From NCBI RefSeq assembly GCF_021026335.1, contig NZ_JAJNCY010000008.1, positions 1-64,000 on the forward strand: DNA of 64,000 nucleotides, given 5' to 3'. Positions 28,661 to 55,856 of this stretch are shown here, piece after piece. Below the pieces are notes generated by a model. The model was not told where the DNA came from. It made no database searches and saw only the letters and a list, made by a program, of their open reading frames with translations. This DNA is from Rhizobium sp. C1 (GTDB lineage Bacteria > Pseudomonadota > Alphaproteobacteria > Rhizobiales > Rhizobiaceae). Numbering within the stretch: the stretch's first letter is position 1; the number at the start of each line of letters is the position of its first letter. The position numbers and the translations under genes are program-made.

Positions 28661-29839
28661 TTGACACGGCACCTGAGCAGCCTCGATTTCATGCAGACAT
28701 TTTCCGCCAAGCTCGACGGGGCTCTGCGCAATCTGTCGCTCGCCCAATATCCGCCCGACGCCCACCGCACCATGCGCAAGTTTGCGTCTTCCGAAGTGGC
28801 CCAGCTTCTCGATGTGACGGAGGCCTATATCCGGCAGATTTCACTGAAGGGGAGGGGCCCGGAGCCGGAAGTGGCGGCCAATGGGCGGCGGCTCTACTCG
28901 GTCGAGCAGATCCTCGAACTGCGCCTGCTGCTCGCCGAAAACGGCCGGAAAAAGTGGATCAATCCGCGCCGGGCGCAAGGCGAGCCCTGTCAGGTGATTG
29001 CGGTCACCAACTTCAAGGGCGGCTCATCCAAGACCTCCACGACGATCCATCTCGGTCATTATCTCGCGCTGAAAGGCTACCGCGTTCTCGCCATCGATCT
29101 CGATCCGCAGGCCTCGCTTACCGCGCTTCACGGTGCGCTGGAAGGCTTCGATCCGCGCGAGGGCGAGACCTTCTATTCGGCGATCCGCTTCGACGAGCCG
29201 GTCGCCACCGAAACGCTGATCCACAAGACGCATATTGCCGGCTTCGATGTCATCTGCGCCGGGCTTGAACTGACCGAGTTCGAAACCGCCGTGGCGCTGG
29301 AAATGCGCAATACCGGCGGCACGGGTTTCTTGTTGAGGGTCAATCAGGCGATCGAGCAGGTGGTGGATCGCTATGACGTAATCCTGATGGATTCCGCGCC
29401 CTCGCTCAACTTCCTGACGCTCTCGTCGCTGACGGCCGCGACCGGCGTTCTGATCCCGGTGCCGGCGCATATGCTGGATGTGGATTCGACGGCGAAGTTC
29501 CTTGAGCTGGCCGGCTCCTACATGCAGATCCTCGCCGATATCGGTGCGACCGCGCAGTGGGATTTCGCCAAGTTCCTGATCACCAAATTCGAGCCCAACG
29601 ACCATCCGCAGGCCAATATGATGGCCCTCATGCGGCAGGTCTTCGGCAATGATCTGCTTTTGAACATGGTCATCAAGTCCACGGCGGTCGCGGATGCGCT
29701 AACATGGAAGCAGAGCCTGTACGAGGTGCAGCGGGCGCGATTCTCCGCGCCCAAGACCTATGACCGGGCGATCGAATCGATCAATGCGGCGAACGCAGAG
29801 ATCGAGCAACTGCTTTGGAACGCATGGGGGCGTCAATGA
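28661..29839 (+). CDS. repA: Plasmid partitioning ATPase RepA (ParA type)
   Basis: 392 residues. The start TTG 28661 is supported by AAGGAGAGG 8 bases upstream; the first ATG (28691) would remove ten residues. An N-terminal helix-turn-helix region (FASSEVAQLLDVTEAYIRQIS, split; about 40-60) precedes the ParA ATPase: deviant Walker A KGGSSKTST (about 117-125) with the signature lysine, VLAIDLDPQASLTAL, and VILMDSAPSLNF. RepA drives segregation with RepB and represses the operon. Its stop overlaps the repB start by 4 bases. It is typical of alphaproteobacterial repABC units, but no repC follows. Confidence 0.93.
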   Translation: MTRHLSSLDFMQTFSAKLDGALRNLSLAQYPPDAHRTMRKFASSEVAQLLDVTEAYIRQISLKGRGPEPEVAANGRRLYSVEQILELRLLLAENGRKKWINPRRAQGEPCQVIAVTNFKGGSSKTSTTIHLGHYLALKGYRVLAIDLDPQASLTALHGALEGFDPREGETFYSAIRFDEPVATETLIHKTHIAGFDVICAGLELTEFETAVALEMRNTGGTGFLLRVNQAIEQVVDRYDVILMDSAPSLNFLTLSSLTAATGVLIPVPAHMLDVDSTAKFLELAGSYMQILADIGATAQWDFAKFLITKFEPNDHPQANMMALMRQVFGNDLLLNMVIKSTAVADALTWKQSLYEVQRARFSAPKTYDRAIESINAANAEIEQLLWNAWGRQ

Positions 29840-30900
29840 GCCGGAAGGATTCGAAGGGCATGTTCGCCAATGTGCTCGGCAAGCTGGGGGAGGGGGCTGC
29901 AGACAGCGCACCGTCCACGACTGCCGGCACGCAGGCCGCAGCACCATCCGCGCCGAAGCCGCTCACCTCGCCGCATCTGATGAAGGTGGCCGCCGGCGTG
30001 CGCCAGATCCAGGAGCGCGGCGAGCTGATCGACAAGCTCCTGAAAGAGGGTGGTCAGGTGGTCGAGCTTGACCCGGATCAGGTCCTGCCGTCCGCGCTCG
30101 CCGACCGTTTCGAAGGGGCCTATGACGACACGGCGATTTCGGAGCTGGTGATCAGCATGGCCGATCGCGGCCAGATCGTGCCGGGTCTCGTGCGCCCGGT
30201 TCCGGCAGAGGGCGGCGAGCCGCAGCGCTACCAGATCGTCTATGGCCGCCGGCGTCTGGCCGCCGCCAAGAAGCTCGGCCTCAAGTTCAAGGCGGTGGTG
30301 CGCGAGCTTACCGACGAACAGGCCGTCATCTACCAGGGCGAGGAAAACACCGCCCGCAACGATCTGACCTATATCGAGAAATGCGCCTTCGCACTGACCA
30401 TGGAAAAGGCCGGCTATTCGCGCAACACGATTGCCGCCTCGCTCTCCACCGGCAAGTCGCATATTTCCGAGATGATCCGGCTGGCCAACACGCTGCCGGA
30501 CAAGCTGGTCCGCACCATCGGCTCCGCGCCGGAAATCGGCCGGCGGCGCTGGATCGAGCTGATGGAAAAGTGGATCACGCACCAGCATTCGCATGTCATG
30601 GTGCAGGAAGTGCTGGATTTCGCCGGCAAGAACATGACGAGCGAGGAGCGCTTTGCACTCGCCATGTCGTCCATGTTCGTCAAGGCATTGAAGCCGGCGC
30701 CCAAGGATCCCGGCCCGTTGACGGTTGTGTCGCGCGGCATCAAGCTGGTCGATGTGACCTATGGCAAGGCGGGCGGCAGGATGGTGTTCAGCAAGTCGGT
30801 CCCGGCCGATTTCGTCGCCTATCTGGCCGAGCGCATGGAAGAACTTCACGACGCCTACCACAAGGACGCGTCGCGCAGGAATGAACAGAAACGGAGTTAA
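29836..30900 (+). CDS. repB: Plasmid partitioning protein RepB (ParB type)
   Basis: About 354 residues from ATG 29836, overlapping the repA stop (ATGA). The N-terminus MSRKDSKGMFANVLGKL is the usual RepB opening. The ParB nuclease-like domain runs about 75-185 (VIYGRRRLAAAKKLGL-type segment, with QGEENTARNDLTYIEKC), followed by the helix-turn-helix GYSRNTIAASLSTGKSHISEM (split; about 195-215) that should bind the parS-like palindromes upstream of repA. RepB normally also leads into a repB-repC gap encoding an antisense RNA; here the following 240 bases show neither a repC nor a clear antisense RNA gene. Confidence 0.93.
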   Translation: MSRKDSKGMFANVLGKLGEGAADSAPSTTAGTQAAAPSAPKPLTSPHLMKVAAGVRQIQERGELIDKLLKEGGQVVELDPDQVLPSALADRFEGAYDDTAISELVISMADRGQIVPGLVRPVPAEGGEPQRYQIVYGRRRLAAAKKLGLKFKAVVRELTDEQAVIYQGEENTARNDLTYIEKCAFALTMEKAGYSRNTIAASLSTGKSHISEMIRLANTLPDKLVRTIGSAPEIGRRRWIELMEKWITHQHSHVMVQEVLDFAGKNMTSEERFALAMSSMFVKALKPAPKDPGPLTVVSRGIKLVDVTYGKAGGRMVFSKSVPADFVAYLAERMEELHDAYHKDASRRNEQKRS

Positions 30901-47044: not shown

Positions 47045-47767
47045 TCAGACCAACGGCGATTTTACAGCCGTACTGTCGAAAGCCTTGGTCTCAAGCCAGC
47101 GGCGGCGGGAGGCATTGAGGTGGCGGTGCATCTCGGCCTGCGCCAGAAGCGGATCTCGCGCACTGAGCGCGTCGAATATGGCATGATGTTCCTGAAGGGC
47201 GAGCGACCACGATTTGCCGCCGCCGAAGCGTTCCTGCAGGCGCTTGGCGATGGGATTGTGGCGTTCCTCGAACAGCCCGGCGACGAGCTTTTCGATGACC
47301 GAATTGCCTGTCTGGCGCGCAATGCACAGGTGAAAGGCCTTGTCCTGTTCGAGCGGGATCTGGCCGGAGGCAATCGTCTCAGCCATCTGCGAAAGCATCT
47401 GCTGTAAATCCGCAAGCGCCTCTTCGGTGATCCGGCTCGCAGCCAGGAGAACCGCGCTCCCCTCGACCATGGAGCGGGCCTGCATCAGCTCGGACGGGCT
47501 TTCACCGTAAATGGAGGACATCCCGCCATCTCGCGGTGTGTCGGCCGTCAGATAAATGCCTGATCCACCGCGAATTTCGACCGTTCCCTCGATTTCAAGC
47601 GCAATCAGCGCCTCGCGCAGCGAGGGCCGCGAAACGCCGAGTTCCTGTGCGAGATCGCGTTCGCTTGGCAGGCGCGCTCCGGCCTTCAGCCCCTTCGCGC
47701 CGATGGACTGCCTGATCTTGTCGGCAACCTGCTGGTAAAGCCGCCGCGGTTCTTCGATTTTGCTCAT
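47045..47767 (-). CDS. FadR-subfamily GntR regulator of the sugar operon
   Basis: About 240 residues from ATG 47767, with GGAAGG 8 bases upstream; GTG 47773 is less well placed. The winged helix at about 12-78 contains LPSERDLAQELGVSRPSLREALIALEIEG (split), the GntR recognition region. The C-terminal FCD all-helical domain (about 95-230) has metal-type histidines in FHLCIARQTGN and LQEHHAIFDAL. Divergent from the sugar importer genes. Two inverse copies of ATTGGTCAAGCCAAT flank the intergenic region, one near each gene, and are the likely operators. Probably a repressor relieved by a pathway sugar acid. Confidence 0.9.
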   Translation of the reverse strand: MSKIEEPRRLYQQVADKIRQSIGAKGLKAGARLPSERDLAQELGVSRPSLREALIALEIEGTVEIRGGSGIYLTADTPRDGGMSSIYGESPSELMQARSMVEGSAVLLAASRITEEALADLQQMLSQMAETIASGQIPLEQDKAFHLCIARQTGNSVIEKLVAGLFEERHNPIAKRLQERFGGGKSWSLALQEHHAIFDALSARDPLLAQAEMHRHLNASRRRWLETKAFDSTAVKSPLV

Positions 47768-47792
47768 GCCCACATCCTTCCCTTTTTCCGAT

Positions 47793-47807
47793 ATTGGTCA
47801 AGCCAAT
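47793..47807. promoter_or_regulatory. GntR/FadR-type operator 1
   Basis: ATTGGTCAAGCCAAT is an inverted repeat (ATTGG...CCAAT) of the FadR-family TGGT/ACCA type, 26 bases upstream of the regulator start. Operator 2 (47922-47936) is its exact reverse complement. Confidence 0.75.
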
Positions 47808-47921
47808 GTTTTGGTCTGCCAGAAACTCAAAGGGCGCTATTGTTATTTTATCCATATTAATCAGAATTTTAACGGATATTTTCCAAAGGTTGCTGCCGCC
47901 CAAATCACTCTCAAATCGAGA

Positions 47922-47936
47922 ATTGGCTTGACCAAT
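47922..47936. promoter_or_regulatory. GntR/FadR-type operator 2
   Basis: ATTGGCTTGACCAAT is the reverse complement of operator 1 and lies 78 bases before the sugar ABC ATPase gene. The two sites are 129 bp apart centre to centre, so one regulator could control both divergent promoters. The rest of 47768-48013 is AT-rich and holds no gene. Confidence 0.75.
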
Positions 47937-48013
47937 TTTCGATGCGTCGCTATTTCTTGCCGCCATGAGGCCGTGAGGAGCTGCGCCAGTCGCAGAACGG
48001 TTTGAGAGGAAAT

Positions 48014-49591
48014 ATGATGGAAACGTCGTCCGGCGCAAGCTCTGTAGCTGGCGCTCCCGCTGCGCAAAGCCCGGCGGAAGAAACCTTGTTGAGCCTCTCG
48101 GGTATCCGCAAGGAATTTCCCGGTGTGATCGCGCTCGATGACGTTCATTTCAACCTTCGCCGCGGTGAGGTTCATGCGATCTGCGGCGAAAACGGCGCAG
48201 GGAAATCGACGCTGATGAAGATCATCAGCGGGGTTTACCAGCCGACCGCCGGCACCATCCGCTACAAGAACGAAGAGGTGCGCTATGCCTCGCCGCGCGA
48301 ATCCGAAGCGGCCGGCATCGCCATCATCCATCAGGAGCTCAATCTCGTTCCGCATCTGACGGTGGCCGAAAACATTTTCCTGTCACGCGAGCCGAGACGC
48401 GGCCCGATGGTGGACCGGCGCAAGCTGAAGGCCGGCGCAAAAGCCTGTCTCGACCGTTTGGGCGTCGATATCGATCCCGATGCGCAGGTGCTGCGTCTTT
48501 CGGTGGCGCAGCGCCAGATGGTGGAAATCGCCAAGGCGCTGTCGCTGAATGCCGAAGTCATCATCATGGATGAGCCCACGTCGTCGCTGACCGAACAGGA
48601 GGCGAACCTCCTCTTTCGCGTCATCCGCGAACTCCGCGCCAAGGGCGTTGGCATTGTCTATATCTCGCATCGTCTGGATGAAATGGCGCAGATCGTCGAC
48701 CGCGTCACCATTCTGCGCGACGGCCGCTTCGTGTCCAGCCACGACTTTGCAGCCATAACCGTCAACGACATCGTCGCCCGCATGGTCGGGCGTTCGCTGG
48801 ATGAGAAATTCCCCGAAAGGGTTTCCGTTCCGACCAATGAACCGATCCTTCGGGTCAAGGGCCTGACGCGGGCAGGGGTGTTTTCCGACATCACCTTCGA
48901 TCTCATGCGCGGCGAAATTCTCGGCTTTGCCGGCCTCATGGGCGCCGGCAGAACCGAAGTGGCCCGCTCGATCTTCGGAGCGGAGCCAGCGGAAGCCGGC
49001 ACCATAGAGTTCAACGGGCGCGAACTGACGATCCGCTCGCCGCAGGACGCGATTGCGGAAGGCATTTCCTATCTTTCTGAAGACCGCAAGAGCCAGGGCC
49101 TGGCCATCAAGATGTCGGTGGCGGCCAATCTTCTGCTCGCCAACATGGGCGCCGTCGCCAACCGTTTCGGCATTATCGACCGCCGCCAGCACAAGGACCG
49201 GGCGGCCCATTATGTCGATCTGCTCGGCATCAAGACGCCGTCGCTCGACCAGACGGTCAGCCGCCTGTCGGGCGGCAACCAGCAGAAGATCATCATCGGA
49301 AAATGGCTGTTCCGCAATTCCCACCTGCTGTTCTTCGACGAGCCGACACGCGGCATCGATGTCGGCGCGAAATACGCCATCTACAAGATCATGGACGAGC
49401 TTGCCTCCAGGGGCATCGGCGTCGTGCTGATCAGCTCGGAGCTTCCGGAAATCCTTGGCATGACCGACCGCGTGGCGGTGTTCCATGCCGGCAGGATCGC
49501 CAAGATCCTCGATACCCGGGCGACCAATCAGGAAGAGATCATGTTTTACGCCTCCGGACAGGATGCGCAGCACAAGGGAATGCAGCAATGA
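48014..49591 (+). CDS. Sugar ABC importer ATPase (RbsA/MglA type)
   Basis: About 525 residues from ATG 48014 (AGAGGA upstream), with two fused ATPase domains. The first has GENGAGKST (about 62-70), LSVAQRQMVEIAKAL and IIMDEPTSSL. The second is degenerate at Walker A (GLMGAGRTE), as usual in this family, but has LSGGNQQKIIIGKWL and FFDEPTRGIDVG. It powers import by the permease encoded next (ATGA overlap). First gene of the putative L-galactose operon. Confidence 0.93.
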   Translation: MMETSSGASSVAGAPAAQSPAEETLLSLSGIRKEFPGVIALDDVHFNLRRGEVHAICGENGAGKSTLMKIISGVYQPTAGTIRYKNEEVRYASPRESEAAGIAIIHQELNLVPHLTVAENIFLSREPRRGPMVDRRKLKAGAKACLDRLGVDIDPDAQVLRLSVAQRQMVEIAKALSLNAEVIIMDEPTSSLTEQEANLLFRVIRELRAKGVGIVYISHRLDEMAQIVDRVTILRDGRFVSSHDFAAITVNDIVARMVGRSLDEKFPERVSVPTNEPILRVKGLTRAGVFSDITFDLMRGEILGFAGLMGAGRTEVARSIFGAEPAEAGTIEFNGRELTIRSPQDAIAEGISYLSEDRKSQGLAIKMSVAANLLLANMGAVANRFGIIDRRQHKDRAAHYVDLLGIKTPSLDQTVSRLSGGNQQKIIIGKWLFRNSHLLFFDEPTRGIDVGAKYAIYKIMDELASRGIGVVLISSELPEILGMTDRVAVFHAGRIAKILDTRATNQEEIMFYASGQDAQHKGMQQ

Positions 49592-50604
49592 GTGAGACCG
49601 GGAAAATGTCCTCCCGTATGAGCGACCGCCAGAAGGATCTGGTGCAGAAATTTGCCGCGCTCGGCAGCCTTGTTGCGCTGACTGCCGTCTTCTCTCTGAC
49701 GAGCAACGCCTTCTTCAGCATCGACAATGCGATGACGATTGCCTTGCAGGTCACCTCCATCGGCCTTCTGGGCATCGGGGCGACCTGCGTCATCATCACC
49801 GGCGGCATCGACCTGTCCGTCGGCTCGGTCTTGGCGCTGAGTGGCGTGGTCGCGGCGATTGCTGTCAAGGAATATGATTTCCCGATCTGGCTCGCCATGG
49901 TGGCGGGCATCCTGACGGGAACCATCTGTGGTCTGCTGAACGGCATCGCCGTGACGCGGCTCAAGCTGCCGCCCTTCATTGCAACGCTCGGCATGATGCT
50001 GATCGCTCGCGGCTTTGCCTTGCAGATCACCGGCGCGCGTGCCGTGTCGGGCCTGGGCGACGCCTTCGGCGAACTCGGCAATGGCTCGCTCTTCCGCATC
50101 GAAAGCATCGGCGCCGATGGGTTCCCGAACGTGACGTTTCCGGGCATTCCCTATCCGGTCATCCTGATGGTCGTGATCGCGATTGCCGTCTCCTATATGC
50201 TCAACCGCTCGGTTCTCGGTCGTCATATCTACGCGGTCGGTTCGAATGCGGATGCGGCGCGGCTCTCCGGCGTCAATGTCGATCGCGTCACCATCTTCAC
50301 GTATATTCTGTCGGGGGCGCTCGCCGGCCTGACGGGCTGTGTGCTGATGTCCCGCCTCGTCACCGGTCAGCCGAACGAAGGCGTGATGTACGAACTCGAC
50401 GCCATTGCCAGCGCGGTCATCGGCGGGACGTCGCTGATCGGGGGCGTGGGCACGATCTCGGGCACGGCCATCGGTGCCTTCGTCATCGGCATCCTGCGCA
50501 ACGGCCTCAACATGAACGGCGTCTCCGCCTTCATCCAGCAAATCATCATCGGTTTCGTCATTCTCGGCACCGTGTGGATCGATCAGCTGCGCAACCGTCG
50601 CTGA
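49588..50604 (+). CDS. Sugar ABC importer permease (RbsC type)
   Basis: 338 residues from ATG 49588, overlapping the ATPase gene by 4 bases. About nine to ten membrane helices. Family signatures: VIITGGIDLSVGSVLALSGV (about 70-89), the cytoplasmic loop VLGRHIYAVGSNADAARLSGV (split; about 207-227), and IASAVIGGTSLIGGVGTISGT (split; near 270-290), the ATPase-coupling region. It transports the substrate delivered by the periplasmic protein encoded downstream. Confidence 0.93.
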   Translation: MSETGKMSSRMSDRQKDLVQKFAALGSLVALTAVFSLTSNAFFSIDNAMTIALQVTSIGLLGIGATCVIITGGIDLSVGSVLALSGVVAAIAVKEYDFPIWLAMVAGILTGTICGLLNGIAVTRLKLPPFIATLGMMLIARGFALQITGARAVSGLGDAFGELGNGSLFRIESIGADGFPNVTFPGIPYPVILMVVIAIAVSYMLNRSVLGRHIYAVGSNADAARLSGVNVDRVTIFTYILSGALAGLTGCVLMSRLVTGQPNEGVMYELDAIASAVIGGTSLIGGVGTISGTAIGAFVIGILRNGLNMNGVSAFIQQIIIGFVILGTVWIDQLRNRR

Positions 50605-50616
50605 TCGTTGAATAAT

Positions 50617-50635
50617 TCGGCCCAAGGGGGGCCGA
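50617..50635 (+). promoter_or_regulatory. Intercistronic stem-loop before the binding-protein gene
   Basis: TCGGCCC (50617-50623) pairs perfectly with GGGCCGA (50629-50635) around a 5-base loop, 13 bases after the permease stop and 66 before the binding-protein start. It could protect the downstream mRNA and raise binding-protein levels. There is no T-run, so full termination is unlikely. Confidence 0.5.
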
Positions 50636-50701
50636 TCAATCGAGGAGCGGCGGTCGCTCCTTGTCTCAACCGGCTACCAAGCCACCTACTGGGAGGAATA
50701 C

Positions 50702-51646
50702 ATGAAGAAGATCGTGTTCGCCGCTTTGGCAACCGCAGCCGCGTTCTGGGTCGCACCGGCCAACGCCGCCGACGAAATCGCCGTCATCGTCAAGACGGTG
50801 AACTCCAACTACTGGCAGAACGTCCAGAAGGGCGCAGATGCTGCGATCAAGAAGACAAACGGCAAGTACACCATGACATTCCAGGGCCCGGCATCGGAGT
50901 CCGCGATTGCCGACGAAGTGAACATGGTCGAGAACGCCGTGAACCGCAAGGTGGCCGGCATCGTGCTCGCGCCGTCCGATCCGGACGCTCTGGTTCCTGC
51001 CGTCAAGAAGGCGTGGGAAGCCCATATCCCGGTCGTGATCATCGACTCCATGCTCAACAAGGACGCCGACAAGTATTACCAGGCGTTCCTGTCGACCGAC
51101 AACAAGAAGGCCGGTGAACTGGCCGCTCAGGCGATGATCGACAAGGTCGGTCAGGAAGGCAAGGTTGCCGTCATGTCCTACGTGGCAGGTGCCGGTTCTG
51201 AAATCGGCCGCGTCGGCGGCTTCGTCGACTATCTGAAGGCGCATTCCAAGCTTCAGGTCGTCGGTCCGTTCTACTCGCAGTCCCAGATGGCGACCGCTCT
51301 CAACCAGACGACCGACGTGCTCGCCGCCAACCCGGACCTGAAGGGCATTTTCGGCGCCAATGAGCCGACCGCCATCGGCATGGGCCGCGCCATCGTGCAG
51401 GCCGGCAAGGCTGGCAAGATCGTCGCCATCGGCTTTGACGGCAATACCGACCTGCAGAACTTCGTCAAGGACGGCACGCTGAATGCCATCGTCGTGCAGA
51501 GCTCCTACCAGATGGGCGAAAAGGGCATCGAAACGCTCGAAAAGGTCCTGAAGAAGGAAAAGGTCGAGAAGTTCATCGATACGGGTGTGGTCCTTGTTAC
51601 CAAGGAAAACATCGACAAGCCGGAAGCCAAGAACGTTCTCTACTGA
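50702..51646 (+). CDS. Sugar ABC importer substrate-binding protein (RbsB type)
   Basis: 314 residues from ATG 50702 with GGGAGGAA upstream. The signal peptide is KKIVFAALATAAAFWVAPANA (split), cleaved near residue 22. The mature protein has the periplasmic-binding-protein fold of group I: EIAVIVKTVNSNYWQNVQKGA (split), IVLAPSDPDALVPAVKKA and later LKGIFGANEPTAIGMGRA, with likely ligand-contacting aromatic and polar residues in these loops. Pathway context points to L-galactose or a related 6-deoxy sugar (L-fucose). It is separated from the aldo-keto reductase gene by a strong hairpin. Confidence 0.92.
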   Translation: MKKIVFAALATAAAFWVAPANAADEIAVIVKTVNSNYWQNVQKGADAAIKKTNGKYTMTFQGPASESAIADEVNMVENAVNRKVAGIVLAPSDPDALVPAVKKAWEAHIPVVIIDSMLNKDADKYYQAFLSTDNKKAGELAAQAMIDKVGQEGKVAVMSYVAGAGSEIGRVGGFVDYLKAHSKLQVVGPFYSQSQMATALNQTTDVLAANPDLKGIFGANEPTAIGMGRAIVQAGKAGKIVAIGFDGNTDLQNFVKDGTLNAIVVQSSYQMGEKGIETLEKVLKKEKVEKFIDTGVVLVTKENIDKPEAKNVLY

Positions 51647-51656
51647 GCAGCATTGC

Positions 51657-51688
51657 GCGCGCCGGGCTCGTCCGGCGCGCGTTCTTCT
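51657..51688 (+). terminator. Strong hairpin after the binding-protein gene (partial terminator)
   Basis: GCGCGCCGG (51657-51665) pairs with CCGGCGCGC (51672-51680), followed by GTTCTTCT. It lies 11 bases past the binding-protein stop and just before the ribosome site of the next gene. It probably lowers expression of the enzyme genes relative to the transporter. Confidence 0.6.
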
Positions 51689-51700
51689 CCCCGAGGATTG

Positions 51701-52732
51701 ATGTCCCAAGGATCGATGTCGATGAAAGCGTCCGAAACGCGCAAACTTCCCCGCTGCGACCTGAGCCTCTCCGTGATCGGTCTCGGCTGCGCCCAGATGG
51801 GAAATCTCTACCGGGTGACGCCGTATGAAGAAGCGAAGGGCGCGTTTACCGCTGCCTGGGACGCCGGCATCCGCTATTTCGATACCGCGCCTTATTATGG
51901 CTATACCCGTTCCGAGCGGCGGCTCGGGACCATGCTCACCGATTTCGACCGGCAGGATTACGTCGTCAGCACCAAGGTCGGTCGTGTCATGCAGCCGGAT
52001 GACCTGGTGGGTGATGAATCCGACGGTTTCGCCGCGCCGCTGCCCTTCCGCCCGGTCTTCGATTACAGCTATGACGGCGTCATGCGATCCTTCGAGGACA
52101 GTCGGCAGCGGCTCGGCATCCATGCGCCCGACATTCTCTTTATCCACGATATCGGCACCGTCACGCATGAAGAAAAGAACGAGCACTATTGGTCGCAGCT
52201 GACCGGCGGCGGCTTCAAGGCGCTCGGCGAATTGCGCGATCAGGGACTGGTCAAAGCCGTTGGCCTCGGTGTCAACGAATTCGAAGTCATCCGCGATGCG
52301 ATGCAGGTTTTCGACATCGACGTCGCGATGCTGGCCGGGCGCTATACACTTCTGGAACAGGAAAGCCTTTCCTTCATGAACGAATGCGCCGCGGCCGGGG
52401 TCGCAATCGTTGCGGCGGGCGTCTTCAATTCGGGCATTCTCGCCGGAAACCGGAAATTCAATTACGAGGAAGCGCCGACCGATGTGCTGGCGCGGGCCGA
52501 TGCACTCGAGGCCGTCTGCCGCGACATGAATGTCAGCCTTCAGGCCGCAGCCCTTCAGTTTCCGATGGCCCACAAGGCCGTGGTCAGTGTCGTATCCGGC
52601 GCGCGCAACGCGGCGCAGATTTCATCCAACATCGCCTCGTTCGAGGAAGAAATTCCGTTGGCTTTCTGGCGAGAATTGCGGTTGCGTGGTCTGGTTGGAG
52701 AGGGTGTTCCTCTCCCGTCGGAAGAGGCATGA
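51701..52732 (+). CDS. Aldo-keto reductase, L-galactose/L-fucose 1-dehydrogenase type
   Basis: About 343 residues from ATG 51701 (GAGG 5-8 bases upstream); ATG 51716 and 51722 are possible. TIM-barrel AKR with catalytic aspartate and tyrosine in YFDTAPYYGYTRSERRLG (split; about 62-79), lysine in VVSTKVGR and histidine in ILFIHDIG. The tract resembles D-threo-aldose 1-dehydrogenases, which oxidise L-fucose, L-galactose and D-arabinose at C1 to the lactone with NAD(P). A COG3618 lactonase gene overlaps its stop by 4 bases, fitting the next step. The later genes favour L-galactose over L-fucose. Confidence 0.88.
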   Translation: MSQGSMSMKASETRKLPRCDLSLSVIGLGCAQMGNLYRVTPYEEAKGAFTAAWDAGIRYFDTAPYYGYTRSERRLGTMLTDFDRQDYVVSTKVGRVMQPDDLVGDESDGFAAPLPFRPVFDYSYDGVMRSFEDSRQRLGIHAPDILFIHDIGTVTHEEKNEHYWSQLTGGGFKALGELRDQGLVKAVGLGVNEFEVIRDAMQVFDIDVAMLAGRYTLLEQESLSFMNECAAAGVAIVAAGVFNSGILAGNRKFNYEEAPTDVLARADALEAVCRDMNVSLQAAALQFPMAHKAVVSVVSGARNAAQISSNIASFEEEIPLAFWRELRLRGLVGEGVPLPSEEA

Positions 52733-53559
52733 CAATGCGCATCGATTCACACCAGCATTTCTGGCTGATGGAGCGCCGGCAAGGCCAGTGGCCTCCGCCG
52801 GAACTCGCCGCTATCTGCCATGATTTCCTGCCCGTCGATCTCGAGCCTGTCCTGAAAGCGGCGGGGGTCGATGGAACGGTGGTGGTGCAATCCCTGCCGG
52901 AGGTCGATGATACGCTCTTTCTTCTCGATCTCGCCAGGCAGAACGATTTCATTCTCGGTGTTGTCGGCTGGGTCGACATGAAGGCCGCGGATGCAAGCGA
53001 GACCATCGCAGCGCTTGCCCAGCATCAAGAGCTCAAGGGCATCCGGCCGATGCTGCAGGGCCTTGAAGATGCCGACTGGATCGATGATCCGGTCCTCGCG
53101 CCGGCTGTGGCCGCCATGATTGCGCACGATCTTGCTTTCGACGGTCTGATCCTCCCACGCCACATGGCGCCGTTGACGCGATTTGCCGAGCGCTATCCGG
53201 ATCTGCGAATTGTCGTCGATCATGGTGCGAAGCCTCTGATCGCTCAAGGCAAATATGTTGAATGGCGCCAAAGGCTTGCGGCGCTTGCCCGCCTGCCGAA
53301 CGTCTCCTGCAAGCTCTCCGGCCTGCTTGTCGAGGCCGGCGATCAGCGCCCCGAAGCGGTGAGGCCCTATGCGGAGACAATCTTTGAACTTTTCGGCGAG
53401 AAGAGGACGATCTGGGGCAGCGACTGGCCGGTCGTCAACCTGGTGAGCGACTATCGGACCTGGCTCGACCAGTGCCTCGACATCGTGCCAGCCGAACATC
53501 ACGACGCTGTCTTTGGCGGAAATGCCATGGATTTTTACCGCCTCAAGCCGGGTCGCTGA
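52729..53559 (+). CDS. COG3618 amidohydrolase, probable L-galactono/L-fucono-lactonase
   Basis: 276 residues from ATG 52729, overlapping the aldo-keto reductase stop (ATGA). Amidohydrolase-2 (PF04909) barrel with the metal pair in IDSHQHFW (about 5-12), IVVDHGAKP (about 164-172), a conserved SCKLSGL, and the aspartate in IWGSDWPV (about 226-233). COG3618 members include L-fucono-1,5-lactonase and the L-galactono-lactonase of Bacteroides. It would hydrolyse the lactone from the preceding enzyme to the aldonate. Confidence 0.87.
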   Translation: MTMRIDSHQHFWLMERRQGQWPPPELAAICHDFLPVDLEPVLKAAGVDGTVVVQSLPEVDDTLFLLDLARQNDFILGVVGWVDMKAADASETIAALAQHQELKGIRPMLQGLEDADWIDDPVLAPAVAAMIAHDLAFDGLILPRHMAPLTRFAERYPDLRIVVDHGAKPLIAQGKYVEWRQRLAALARLPNVSCKLSGLLVEAGDQRPEAVRPYAETIFELFGEKRTIWGSDWPVVNLVSDYRTWLDQCLDIVPAEHHDAVFGGNAMDFYRLKPGR

Positions 53560-53580
53560 CCCGGAAACAGGAACCGAAAC

Positions 53581-54720
53581 ATGCAATCCTCTCAACACAC
53601 CGGCGAAAATCCGATCCTGCAATTCGGCACCAGCCGGTTTCTGCTGGCCCATGCCGACCTCTTCATCTCGCAGGCACTGGCGTCCGGCGAGGCGCTGGGC
53701 AAGATCACGCTGGTGCAGACGACGGGCAGCGCGCAGAGCGCGAAGCGCGTCGCTGCACTCGCTTCGGGGGCTGCTTATCCAGTCCGCGTGCGCGGCCTCG
53801 CCGATGGCAAGGTCGTGGATGAGGAGCTTCAGGGCCAGGCGATCGGCAAGGCGCTGTTTGCCGGGAGCGACTGGCCGGCGGTGCGTCGTGCTGCAGTGGC
53901 CGCTCGCGTCATCATTTCCAACACCGGCGATAAAGGCTTTGCGCTTGATCCGCAGGACACGCGCGACAGCATCGGTGATCGCAGCACGGCGCCGCGCAGT
54001 TTTCCGGCGAAGATTGCAGCTCTTCTGCTGGAGCGCTCGGAAGCCGCTCCGCAGCAGCCGGTCTCGCTCTTTCCCTGCGAACTGATCGAGAAGAACGGCG
54101 AGCGTTTGCGGGCAATCGTCGTGGATCTTGCCCGCGACTGGGGCTTTCCGGAAAGCTTCTTTTCCTATCTCGAGACGCATTGCCGTTTCGCCAACAGCCT
54201 GGTGGACCGGATCGTCTCCGAACCCATCGAGCCGGTCGGCGCGGTGGCGGAGCCCTATGCGCTTTGGGCGGTGGGCCAGCAGGACGGGCTTGTCCTTCCC
54301 TGCCAGCACCCGGCCATCGTCGTGACGCCCGATCTTCAGCGTTACGAAACGCTGAAGCTGCACATCCTCAATCTCGGCCATACATTCCTGGCGGACCGGT
54401 GGCGGAAAGAGGAAAGATCGGCAACGGAGACAGTGCGCGAAATCCTGAGCGTTCCGGCCGTGCGGGCCGATCTTGAGGCAGTATGGCGCGGCGAGGTTCT
54501 GCCGGTGATGGCCGCCCGGGGGCTGGGGGACGAGGCGGCGGCTTATATGGCGGAGGTCCTGGATCGTTTCCTCAACCCCTTCCTGGTGCATCGTCTTTCG
54601 GACATCGCCAACAACCATCTTGAGAAGATCGCCCGTCGCATCCGGCCGATGGTCGAGGCGGGCGGGTCGCTCGGCCTGACCCAGCCGTTTCTTGCCGCGA
54701 TGCTGGAAGAGACGGCCTAG
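53581..54720 (+). CDS. Mannitol dehydrogenase-family oxidoreductase, probable tagaturonate reductase
   Basis: 379 residues. It belongs to the polyol-specific long-chain dehydrogenase family: N-terminal LQFGTSRFLLAHADLF (about 13-28), FPCELIEKNGERLRAIV, the HCRFANSLVDRIV stretch (about 200-212) that corresponds to the family's CNSMVDRI substrate motif, and LHILNLGHTFLAD (about 260). Closest roles are D-tagaturonate/D-fructuronate reductases (UxaB/UxuB), which make D-altronate or D-mannonate. It is shorter than UxaB (~480). With the zinc dehydrogenase downstream it completes L-galactonate to D-tagaturonate to D-altronate. Identity of the uronate is inference. Confidence 0.83.
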   Translation: MQSSQHTGENPILQFGTSRFLLAHADLFISQALASGEALGKITLVQTTGSAQSAKRVAALASGAAYPVRVRGLADGKVVDEELQGQAIGKALFAGSDWPAVRRAAVAARVIISNTGDKGFALDPQDTRDSIGDRSTAPRSFPAKIAALLLERSEAAPQQPVSLFPCELIEKNGERLRAIVVDLARDWGFPESFFSYLETHCRFANSLVDRIVSEPIEPVGAVAEPYALWAVGQQDGLVLPCQHPAIVVTPDLQRYETLKLHILNLGHTFLADRWRKEERSATETVREILSVPAVRADLEAVWRGEVLPVMAARGLGDEAAAYMAEVLDRFLNPFLVHRLSDIANNHLEKIARRIRPMVEAGGSLGLTQPFLAAMLEETA

Positions 54721-54730
54721 CAAAACATTC

Positions 54731-54757
54731 AGCGAAAGCGGGAACCGGTTTCGCGTT
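54731..54757 (+). repeat. Family IV short repeat, copy 1
   Basis: AGCGAAAGCGGGAACCGGTTTCGCG is nearly the reverse complement of 56791-56816. The A/G-rich half mirrors itself around the centre, giving an imperfect hairpin. Similar sequences are scattered in Rhizobiaceae intergenic regions. It sits between the tagaturonate reductase-like gene and the zinc dehydrogenase gene. Confidence 0.6.
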
Positions 54758-54836
54758 CGATGTGACCTCAAAATAAAGAGACAGAGCGTTTCAGGCGATC
54801 CCGGATTTCGCTGTATACGCCCCAAGGGAGCTGGCA

Positions 54837-55856
54837 ATGAGAAAAGCGCTGACAATCGAGGCTGAGAATACCGCCCGTTTCCGCATGGTAGAAAGCCAGC
54901 CGCTCGGCACCGGCGAGGTGCGCGTCCGTGTGCGCCATGTCGGGCTCTGCGGCAGCGATCTGAACACCTATCGCGGCCTCAACCCGCTGGTGGCGCTCCC
55001 GCGCATCCCGGGTCACGAGATCGGTGGGGAAATCCTGGAGGCCGGCGAGGGCGTCGGCCCGACGATGGGCGTCGGGGCGCGCGTCATCGTCATGCCCTAT
55101 ACCAATTGCGGAACATGCAGTTCCTGCCGCAAGGGCCGGCTGAACGCCTGCCGCTACAATCGCACGCTCGGTGTCCAGCAGGATGGCGGGCTGGCAGACG
55201 AGATCGTCCTGCCGCAGGAGAAACTGATCCTCAACGATACGCTCGAGCCGCATCGGCTGGCACTGGTCGAGCCGCTGTCTGTCGGTTTCCATGCCGTGGA
55301 GCGCGGCCGCGTCGAAAAGGGCGACAAGGTTGCCGTGATCGGTTGCGGGATGATCGGCATGGGCGCGTTGATCGGCGCGGTGGCGAAGGGCGCTGAAGTG
55401 CTGGCCATCGACATGAGCGAAAAGAAGCTGGAGATTGCCCGCGCCTTCGGCGCGAGCGTGACCGTCAATGGCCGGACCGAGGACGTTGCCGCACGCGTGG
55501 CGGAATGGACGAATGGCGATGGCGTCGATGTCGCCGTCGAGGCCGTGGGCCTCCCGGAAACCTTCGTGCAGGCCATCGATCTCGCCTGCTTTGCCGGCCG
55601 CGTCGTCTATATCGGCTACTCAAAAGCGCCCGTCACCTATGACACCAAGTTCTTCAATCTGAAGGAACTCGACATCATGGGCTCGCGCAACGCCACGATG
55701 GACGATTTCACAACGGTCATCGCGCATCTGGAAAAGATCGGCGACACCGCCGATCTGCTCATCTCGAAGGTCTTCCCTTTCGACGAGGCGGAGGCCGCTT
55801 TCCCGTACTGGCGCGAAAGCCCCGACGCGCTGAAGATCGTCATCGAGCGTGGCTGA
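54837..55856 (+). CDS. Zinc-dependent alcohol dehydrogenase, probable L-galactonate 5-dehydrogenase
   Basis: 339 residues, medium-chain dehydrogenase. Catalytic zinc ligands: cysteine in GLCGSDLNTY (about residue 38), histidine-glutamate in PGHEIGGE (about 59-64) and glutamate in LVEPLSVGFHAVE. Structural zinc cysteines: NCGTCSSCRKGRLNAC (about 89-104). NAD fold: VAVIGCGMIGMGALIGA. It belongs to the sorbitol/threonine/L-gulonate and L-galactonate 5-dehydrogenase group. In this operon it would oxidise L-galactonate to D-tagaturonate. Last gene of the operon; a 116-base gap with a repeat precedes it. Specificity inferred from neighbours. Confidence 0.88.
   Translation: MRKALTIEAENTARFRMVESQPLGTGEVRVRVRHVGLCGSDLNTYRGLNPLVALPRIPGHEIGGEILEAGEGVGPTMGVGARVIVMPYTNCGTCSSCRKGRLNACRYNRTLGVQQDGGLADEIVLPQEKLILNDTLEPHRLALVEPLSVGFHAVERGRVEKGDKVAVIGCGMIGMGALIGAVAKGAEVLAIDMSEKKLEIARAFGASVTVNGRTEDVAARVAEWTNGDGVDVAVEAVGLPETFVQAIDLACFAGRVVYIGYSKAPVTYDTKFFNLKELDIMGSRNATMDDFTTVIAHLEKIGDTADLLISKVFPFDEAEAAFPYWRESPDALKIVIERG

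Follow-up and report, generated by a model that had tools for sequence, protein, structure and literature searches.

The locus and its genes

Positions 47045-55856 of the stretch of Rhizobium sp. C1 DNA analyzed here (64,000 nucleotides of contig NZ_JAJNCY010000008.1, hereafter the window) hold a divergent regulator gene and seven plus-strand genes, all eight with intact reading frames, which we consider as a candidate operon for L-galactose catabolism. A preliminary description of this DNA had named a GntR regulator and, in order, an importer, an aldo-keto reductase (AKR), a COG3618 lactonase, a uronate reductase and a zinc dehydrogenase; Pfam matches bear out all of these genes and their order, the plus strand running from the ATPase of a CUT2 importer through permease, binding protein, AKR, lactonase and reductase to the zinc dehydrogenase, and they place the divergent regulator (GntR and FCD domains) in the FadR subfamily. 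The importer proteins match ABC_tran, BPD_transp_2 and Peripla_BP_4, and the four enzymes match Aldo_ket_red, Amidohydro_2, Mannitol_dh and ADH_zinc_N, respectively. The features are listed below with the evidence on which each name is based.

47045-47767, minus strand: FadR-subfamily GntR regulator of 240 amino acids (aa), presumed repressor (NCBIfam, Pfam)
47794-47806, no strand: putative operator TTGGTCAAGCCAA, regulator side (scan for TTGGN5CCAA)
47923-47935, no strand: putative operator TTGGCTTGACCAA, upstream of the transporter genes (scan for TTGGN5CCAA)
48014-49591, plus strand: rbsA-type ATPase of a CUT2 sugar importer (NCBIfam, Pfam)
49588-50604, plus strand: rbsC-type permease (NCBIfam, Pfam)
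50702-51646, plus strand: periplasmic sugar-binding protein (85% identity to PDB 4wut over 290 residues)
51701-52732, plus strand: AKR, proposed NAD(P)-dependent L-galactose 1-dehydrogenase of the D-threo-aldose dehydrogenase type (Pfam, motifs)
52735-53559, plus strand: COG3618 amidohydrolase, proposed L-galactono/L-fucono-1,5-lactonase (NCBIfam, nearest solved structure 4dlf)
53581-54720, plus strand: short UxaB-like reductase of 379 aa, proposed D-tagaturonate reductase yielding D-altronate (NCBIfam, Pfam, motif)
54837-55856, plus strand: zinc dehydrogenase, proposed L-galactonate 5-dehydrogenase (NCBIfam, Pfam, identity)

The ATPase and permease genes share 4 bases, the AKR and lactonase genes are 2 bases apart, and the longest intergenic gap of the operon (116 bases) lies 5' of the zinc dehydrogenase gene. 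The identical eight-gene set is present in two other genomes of the genus (G117 and G187), so the arrangement is not a matter of chance. The Pfam content also upholds the statement that no fuconate dehydratase is encoded in the operon, which contains neither the L-fuconate dehydratase, 2-keto-3-deoxy-L-fuconate (KDF) dehydrogenase and diketo acid hydrolase of the route III for L-fucose, nor any of the three enzymes of the lgn-type set, i.e. short-chain dehydrogenase/reductase (SDR), 2-keto-3-deoxygalactonate (KDGal) kinase and 2-keto-3-deoxy-6-phosphogalactonate (KDPGal) aldolase, nor an altronate dehydratase.

What the window does encode together is an AKR, a COG3618 lactonase and a zinc dehydrogenase, the trio of enzyme types known from the L-galactose pathway of Bacteroides. 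The five solved structures that best match the AKR are every one named L-galactose dehydrogenase, and we take them to be plant enzymes. The lactonase has L-fucono-1,5-lactonase as its best NCBIfam model (193.6 bits against a cut-off of 400) and matches 4dlf in its His, Arg and Asp stretches. For the reductase the best model is tagaturonate reductase (197.8 bits, cut-off 359), and the UxaB model outscores that for fructuronate reductase by 198 to 31 bits. It is 27% identical to E. coli UxaB, a protein of 483 aa; a truncated gene was considered and rejected, since most of the 48 related sequences from other loci (at least 45% identity) measure 373-384 aa. The KxxxxNxxH stretch is kept in the window reductase and in 48 of these 48 sequences, just as the AKR keeps its D-Y-K-H stretches and the zinc enzyme its Cx2Cx2Cx7C, all three being presumably catalytic motifs. 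By family, then, a C5 dehydrogenase stands beside a tagaturonate reductase. The dehydrogenase is of another zinc type than E. coli LgoD (33% identity) and, by identity, is nearer the Bacteroides type, its relative in B. finegoldii (47%) being found in a locus for AKR, lactonase, FucP and zinc dehydrogenase.

The nearest NCBIfam models of the regulator are ExuR, NanR and UxuR (ExuR at 122.5 bits, cut-off 396). Both putative operators lie between the regulator and the operon, the one at 47923 being the exact reverse complement of that at 47794, and TTGGN5CCAA occurs nowhere else in the window (simulated sequence yields 0.95 sites per 64 kb); a FadR-type repressor acting on these two inverted operators between divergent promoters would control the operon. 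The 13-mer also occurs between regulator and rbsA in loci L016 and L047, and the pair recurs in L144 and in the single genome that provides L016 and L143, L141 and L142 having a variant of it. The site is not found in every locus: at least one copy, at any position, is present in 41 of 93 scanned loci, and it is missing from Agrobacterium loci, L031, L033 and L034 among them.

Two structured stretches were observed within the operon. A strong GC hairpin at 51655-51682, between the binding-protein and AKR genes (61-base stretch, -28.5 kcal/mol, equalled by 0 of 200 shuffles), may possibly set the ratio of importer to enzymes. The 116-base gap (54721-54836) folds into a long stem (z -2.4, equalled by 5 of 200 shuffles) that presumably resembles rhizobial intergenic palindromes.

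Gene neighbourhoods and the proposed route

Searching named genomes with the binding protein as query turned up 256 related stretches, and the following counts cover the best 80 of these 256. Gene contexts were derived from a simple open reading frame caller and BLAST to reference proteins, a procedure that misses some genes and leaves absences uncertain, for which reason tblastn was run on ten sequences. A zinc dehydrogenase was assigned to the window type at an identity of at least 55% and to a second type at 50% or above, and a reductase was called either as the short form (at least 45% identity) or as a full-length UxuB/UxaB match (at least 25%).

The AKR is present in 68 of the 80 loci, the lactonase in 66 and fucD in 67. 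A zinc dehydrogenase occurs in 72, being of the window type in 5 and of the second, LgoD-like type (42% identical to E. coli LgoD) in 67, and no locus holds both, as would be expected had one gene displaced another of the same role. Among the 72 zinc-bearing loci, 59 have a reductase, 57 UxaA and 61 fucD; the eight loci lacking the dehydrogenase have no reductase and no UxaA, and six of them have fucD. This joint presence and absence indicates that the genes for these three enzymes (zinc dehydrogenase, reductase and UxaA) move together as a module. Most of the 80 are combined L-fucose plus L-galactonate loci, in which importer, AKR and lactonase are common to the L-galactonate module and to an L-fucose module of RhaM, SDR, FAH and FucD. 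Both modules are present, with annotation, on a Neorhizobium plasmid, and both occur in betaproteobacterial loci (L084, L085, L087 and L091-L093), other betaproteobacterial loci (L081-L083 and L086) having only the importer, zinc enzyme and reductase. Two statements of the preliminary description give way before these counts: a route found unusual for rhizobia is not so when a zinc dehydrogenase of either type accompanies this importer in 72 of 80 loci, and "dedicated transporter" is too strong a term because orthologous importers are mostly accompanied by fucD; the importer is probably of an L-fucose/L-galactose type. The window locus itself is, on this comparison, a common sugar locus of its relatives that has been cut down and partly refitted: it keeps the L-galactonate branch only, with a Bacteroides-like dehydrogenase where 67 of the 80 loci have an LgoD-like one.

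Across 297 Rhizobiaceae genomes the window-type zinc enzyme was found in 21 (E up to 1e-100) and the short reductase in 57 (E up to 1e-60), the two together in 13 against 4.0 expected (p = 8e-6, a value that is too small because the genomes are related). UxaA is close by in 9 of the 20 zinc-enzyme loci besides that of the window (L145, L147-L153 and L156; 54-56% identity to references), L147 being the same Agrobacterium rubi locus as L017, and two further loci of the 20 have a distant UxaA. In another Rhizobiaceae genome (L145, 6343-13901) zinc enzyme, UxaA and a divergent reductase are followed, as judged by eye, by genes of a tripartite ATP-independent periplasmic (TRAP)-type transporter, which would perhaps fit uptake of a sugar acid, L-galactonate itself.

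It is mainly on these comparative grounds that we consider it probable that the operon takes L-galactose to D-altronate, the route first proposed for it and still the best reading of the gene neighbourhoods and of the likeness of the zinc enzyme to its Bacteroides counterpart. The CUT2 importer would bring in L-galactose, and probably L-fucose too; the AKR would oxidize C1 of L-galactose to give L-galactono-1,5-lactone, which the amidohydrolase would open to L-galactonate; the zinc enzyme would then oxidize C5 of L-galactonate, giving D-tagaturonate, and the short UxaB-like enzyme would reduce the latter to D-altronate. Oxidation of L-galactonate at C5 gives D-tagaturonate, whose reduction from the opposite face gives D-altronate, so that the last two steps would jointly invert C5. 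L-galactose, L-fucose, D-arabinose and D-altrose have the 2S,3R,4R configuration in common, and L-fucose differs from L-galactose at C6 only, which fits an importer, AKR and lactonase serving both branches; L-fuconate, without the C6 hydroxyl, needs another branch, and the two branches would therefore have uptake and the first two enzymatic steps in common and diverge only afterwards. PMC6336799 (2019) likewise gives a common configuration for D-altronate, L-galactonate and D-arabinonate, and reports an AKR accepting D-arabinose, L-fucose and L-galactose.

Several observations nevertheless weigh against this route. None of the eight operon proteins passes an NCBIfam cut-off among the matches listed, and their names are therefore family-level only. 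Within the stretch examined, 13 of the 72 zinc loci lack a reductase and 15 lack UxaA; three of the five window-type zinc loci (L017, L089 and L090) lack the short reductase, L017 having UxuB, and L047 has no recognised lactonase. In the genus, no UxaA is linked to the operon, and the sole COG2721 protein identified clusters in a tree with sequences from L-fucose-like loci. Of the references compared with the zinc enzyme, the nearest (67%) is a Paracoccus denitrificans gene, PDEN_RS24530, from an lgn-like L-gluconate cluster. Finally, PDB 4wut, the structure that the binding protein resembles, was reportedly solved with D-fucose.

The last two points each open an alternative. That the operon imports another sugar, such as D-fucose, and subjects it to different chemistry seems very unlikely to us: the protein closest to 4wut in our set (L058, 96.6%) comes from a combined L-fucose/L-galactonate locus. 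According to PMC3454389, D-fucose does induce the gene of Sinorhizobium meliloti SMc02774, and the protein binds L-fucose with a nanomolar Kd. The P. denitrificans match raises the possibility, which we hold to be unlikely, of L-gluconate-type substrates, derived from L-glucose or another L-sugar, being converted by the zinc enzyme to 5-keto-L-gluconate and by the reductase to D-idonate. PMC12632266 describes such handling of L-gluconate by the lgn operon of Paracoccus laeviglucosivorans 43P, and PDEN_RS24530 lies among the enzyme set described there for lgn (COG2721 dehydratase, 2-dehydro-3-deoxygalactonokinase, KDPGal aldolase and SDR). According to the same paper, the Luteolibacter enzyme LguD hardly discriminates between L-gluconate and L-galactonate, so sequence cannot settle the substrate of the window enzyme; the paper also reports that LguC, the D-tagaturonate reductase of that organism, prefers D-tagaturonate about 20-fold over 5-keto-L-gluconate by kcat/Km. 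The reductase of the window speaks for the galacto series. Moreover, this reductase is UxaB-like, whereas an SDR gene follows the P. denitrificans zinc enzyme; the operon is devoid of the KDGal kinase and KDPGal aldolase; its importer, AKR and lactonase are those of fucD-bearing loci; and the short reductase accompanies LgoD-like enzymes too.

The dehydratase step and the cluster on contig C16

If L-galactose is indeed taken to D-altronate, the pathway is complete, as the preliminary description had it, as far as that product, and the term fails at the next step: a PF04295 search of the genome returned one protein (COG2721/UxaA family), which belongs to another, L-fucose-like cluster on contig C16. 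Five of the six same-genus genomes in the sample have the core of lactonase, reductase and zinc enzyme, and each of these five has exactly one PF04295 protein; the sixth, G245, has none, and a genome search found neither zinc enzyme nor reductase in it. In all five the PF04295 gene is clustered with genes for an SDR, an FAH protein, a GntR regulator and a FucU-like protein; every genome but G117 adds an AKR, and G000, G014 and G293 add a CUT2 importer. No window-type lactonase was found beside this cluster by tblastn, second lactonases elsewhere in the genomes not having been searched for. With candidates for the COG2721, SDR and FAH steps of the oxidative L-fucose route all on C16, the cluster looks like one for the oxidative breakdown of L-fucose or D-arabinose.

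The two clusters appear to trade components. The window-type operon of G014 and G293 lacks the rbsACB importer as well as the AKR (tblastn), and no window-type AKR was found anywhere in these two genomes, while G117 is the one without the C16 AKR. Genome-wide, binding proteins (E up to 1e-30) are of the window type only in G117 and G187 and of the C16 type only in G014 and G293; the window's own genome has both types and G245 neither. Such trading of importer and AKR, seen on comparing L141-L144 with L170-L173, is the pattern expected of one L-fucose/L-galactose system, and it rests on four genomes, a small sample in which the losses are perhaps not independent.

We consider it about as likely as not that the window operon and the cluster on C16 work as halves of a single interlocked system for L-fucose and L-galactose, with lactonase, COG2721 dehydratase and importers in common; the window lactonase would then open both lactones, a promiscuous C16 protein would dehydrate both L-fuconate and D-altronate, whose C2-C4 configuration is the same, and either importer would feed both branches. 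When 80 UxaA-family sequences were placed in a tree, the C16 protein fell in a clade with copies from L-fucose-like loci of Ruegeria and Rhodobacteraceae SC52, and the sister group of this clade (support 99/99) is formed by sequences from Paracoccus seriniphilus and P. liaowanqingii. That of P. seriniphilus stands with a reductase, AKR, lactonase and zinc enzyme and with no FAH or fucD annotated near; long branches call for caution and the deeper joins are unsure. This placement makes a dual dehydratase possible, though unproven. PMC6336799 reports weak side activities of a COG2721 D-arabinonate dehydratase, 12% for D-altronate, 5.6% for L-fuconate and 2.4% for L-galactonate, its kcat/Km for D-altronate being some 6,700-fold below that for D-arabinonate. 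Shared control by the window regulator is unsupported, TTGGN5CCAA being absent from L009, L170, L171 and L173 and present in L172 once, inside the SDR gene.

The same data bear on a further explanation, namely that the operon serves mainly uptake and oxidation of L-fucose (or D-arabinose), with the later steps on C16 and the zinc enzyme and reductase as accessories. In its favour, the importer, like the AKR and the lactonase, belongs to a type that accompanies fucD, the C16-type cluster of the five genomes has the COG2721, SDR, hydrolase and FucU-like genes and not the window-type lactonase, the window-type importer is the sole survivor of the two in two of these genomes, and SMc02774 of S. 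meliloti may offer a nanomolar precedent for L-fucose. We regard this explanation as improbable all the same, for G014 and G293 have kept regulator, lactonase, reductase and zinc enzyme despite the loss of rbsACB and AKR there, which puts both supposed accessories in the conserved core, and L-fuconate, for want of the C6 hydroxyl, cannot yield D-altronate.

For the L-galactose route, the dehydration of D-altronate would fall to an enzyme encoded outside the operon, the C16 COG2721 protein being the most plausible one, and the product would enter the 2-keto-3-deoxygluconate (KDG)/Entner-Doudoroff route through KdgK and Eda. The suggestion that uxaA and kdgK be sought elsewhere in the genome thus met with a partial return: besides the one UxaA-family protein, there are a KdgK-like kinase, Eda-family proteins (with a weaker second PF01081 protein on C22) and a UxuA-UxaC-UxuB set, so D-altronate could be used once dehydrated. 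Other dehydratase families yielded no assigned enzyme. UxuA, accompanied by UxaC and UxuB, looks like part of an ordinary D-glucuronate set and was set aside on that ground; one of three IlvD/EDD matches, on C16, sits by eye in a pentose-type cluster; and of three MR_MLE_C matches one, beside benzoate-dioxygenase-like genes, is by eye a muconate cycloisomerase, another lies on C1 and the third is below cut-off. Given this incomplete yield, a non-homologous altronate dehydratase may exist.

Some surroundings of the two clusters were noted in passing. The window's contig holds, by eye, a dioxygenase set for benzoate or related aromatics with catechol dioxygenase and muconate cycloisomerase (L102, contig C21 coordinates 112033-117581). 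Two genes at 28661-30900 of the window resemble, by eye, the plasmid partition genes repA and repB, so the window may sit on a secondary replicon. The C16 cluster (L009, 4222-17367) adjoins replication/partition genes (RepA and RepB matches; RepC by eye), and the flanks of L170-L173 resemble those of this cluster.

Related systems and biological meaning

The intermediates proposed here, from L-galactonate to D-altronate, are those of LgoD, UxaB and UxaA in E. coli, whose route begins from the acid and whose LgoD and UxaB are 33% and 27% identical to the window proteins. Bacteroides vulgatus reportedly has an L-galactose pathway, BVU_0219/0220/0222. Likeness to Bacteroides, as first claimed, holds for the zinc enzyme and for its sharing a locus with an AKR and a COG3618-type amidohydrolase, and not for the AKR sequence, which at 23% identity to that of B. 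finegoldii shows no close kinship; the B. finegoldii locus, moreover, has a FucP permease instead of the ABC importer and no annotated reductase. BVU_0219 and BVU_0222 are mentioned in PMC12632266, where the dual L-glucose/L-galactose pathway of Luteolibacter LG18 (lguABCDEF, 2025) is characterized. This pathway resembles ours in its 1-dehydrogenase, C5 dehydrogenase and reductase yielding D-altronate, and differs in including dehydratase and aldolase genes, in belonging to another phylum and in that no lactonase or ABC importer is named for the cluster. The lgn operon and its P. denitrificans look-alike share with the window a zinc dehydrogenase and the succession of C5 oxidation and C5 reduction, and the P. 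denitrificans cluster differs by encoding a KDGal kinase, a KDPGal aldolase and an SDR; the annotation of its surroundings shows no AKR, COG3618 lactonase or CUT2 importer. Loci for L-fucose, L-fuconate and L-galactonate with lgoD, uxaA and either uxaB or uxaF were predicted in 2017 in Halomonas and Chromohalobacter (PMC5507952); they likewise tie an L-galactonate branch with a C5 dehydrogenase to L-fucose genes, but have a TRAP importer of acids and LgoD where the window has an ABC importer and a Bacteroides-like dehydrogenase, and, unlike them, the window operon is without the L-fuconate branch and uxaA. We recognised no description of this operon in Rhizobiaceae in the literature searched, most subscription journals lying outside it.

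L-galactose is a rare plant sugar, a precursor of ascorbate and a minor sugar of the cell wall. If the reading proposed here is true, the L-fucose loci of many plant-associated bacteria would double as L-galactose loci, and one genus would have trimmed such a locus to its L-galactose branch and swapped the key dehydrogenase, its genomes having dropped one or the other importer as though the two were interchangeable. The finding would also bear on how far a single UxaA-family dehydratase can serve two pathways.

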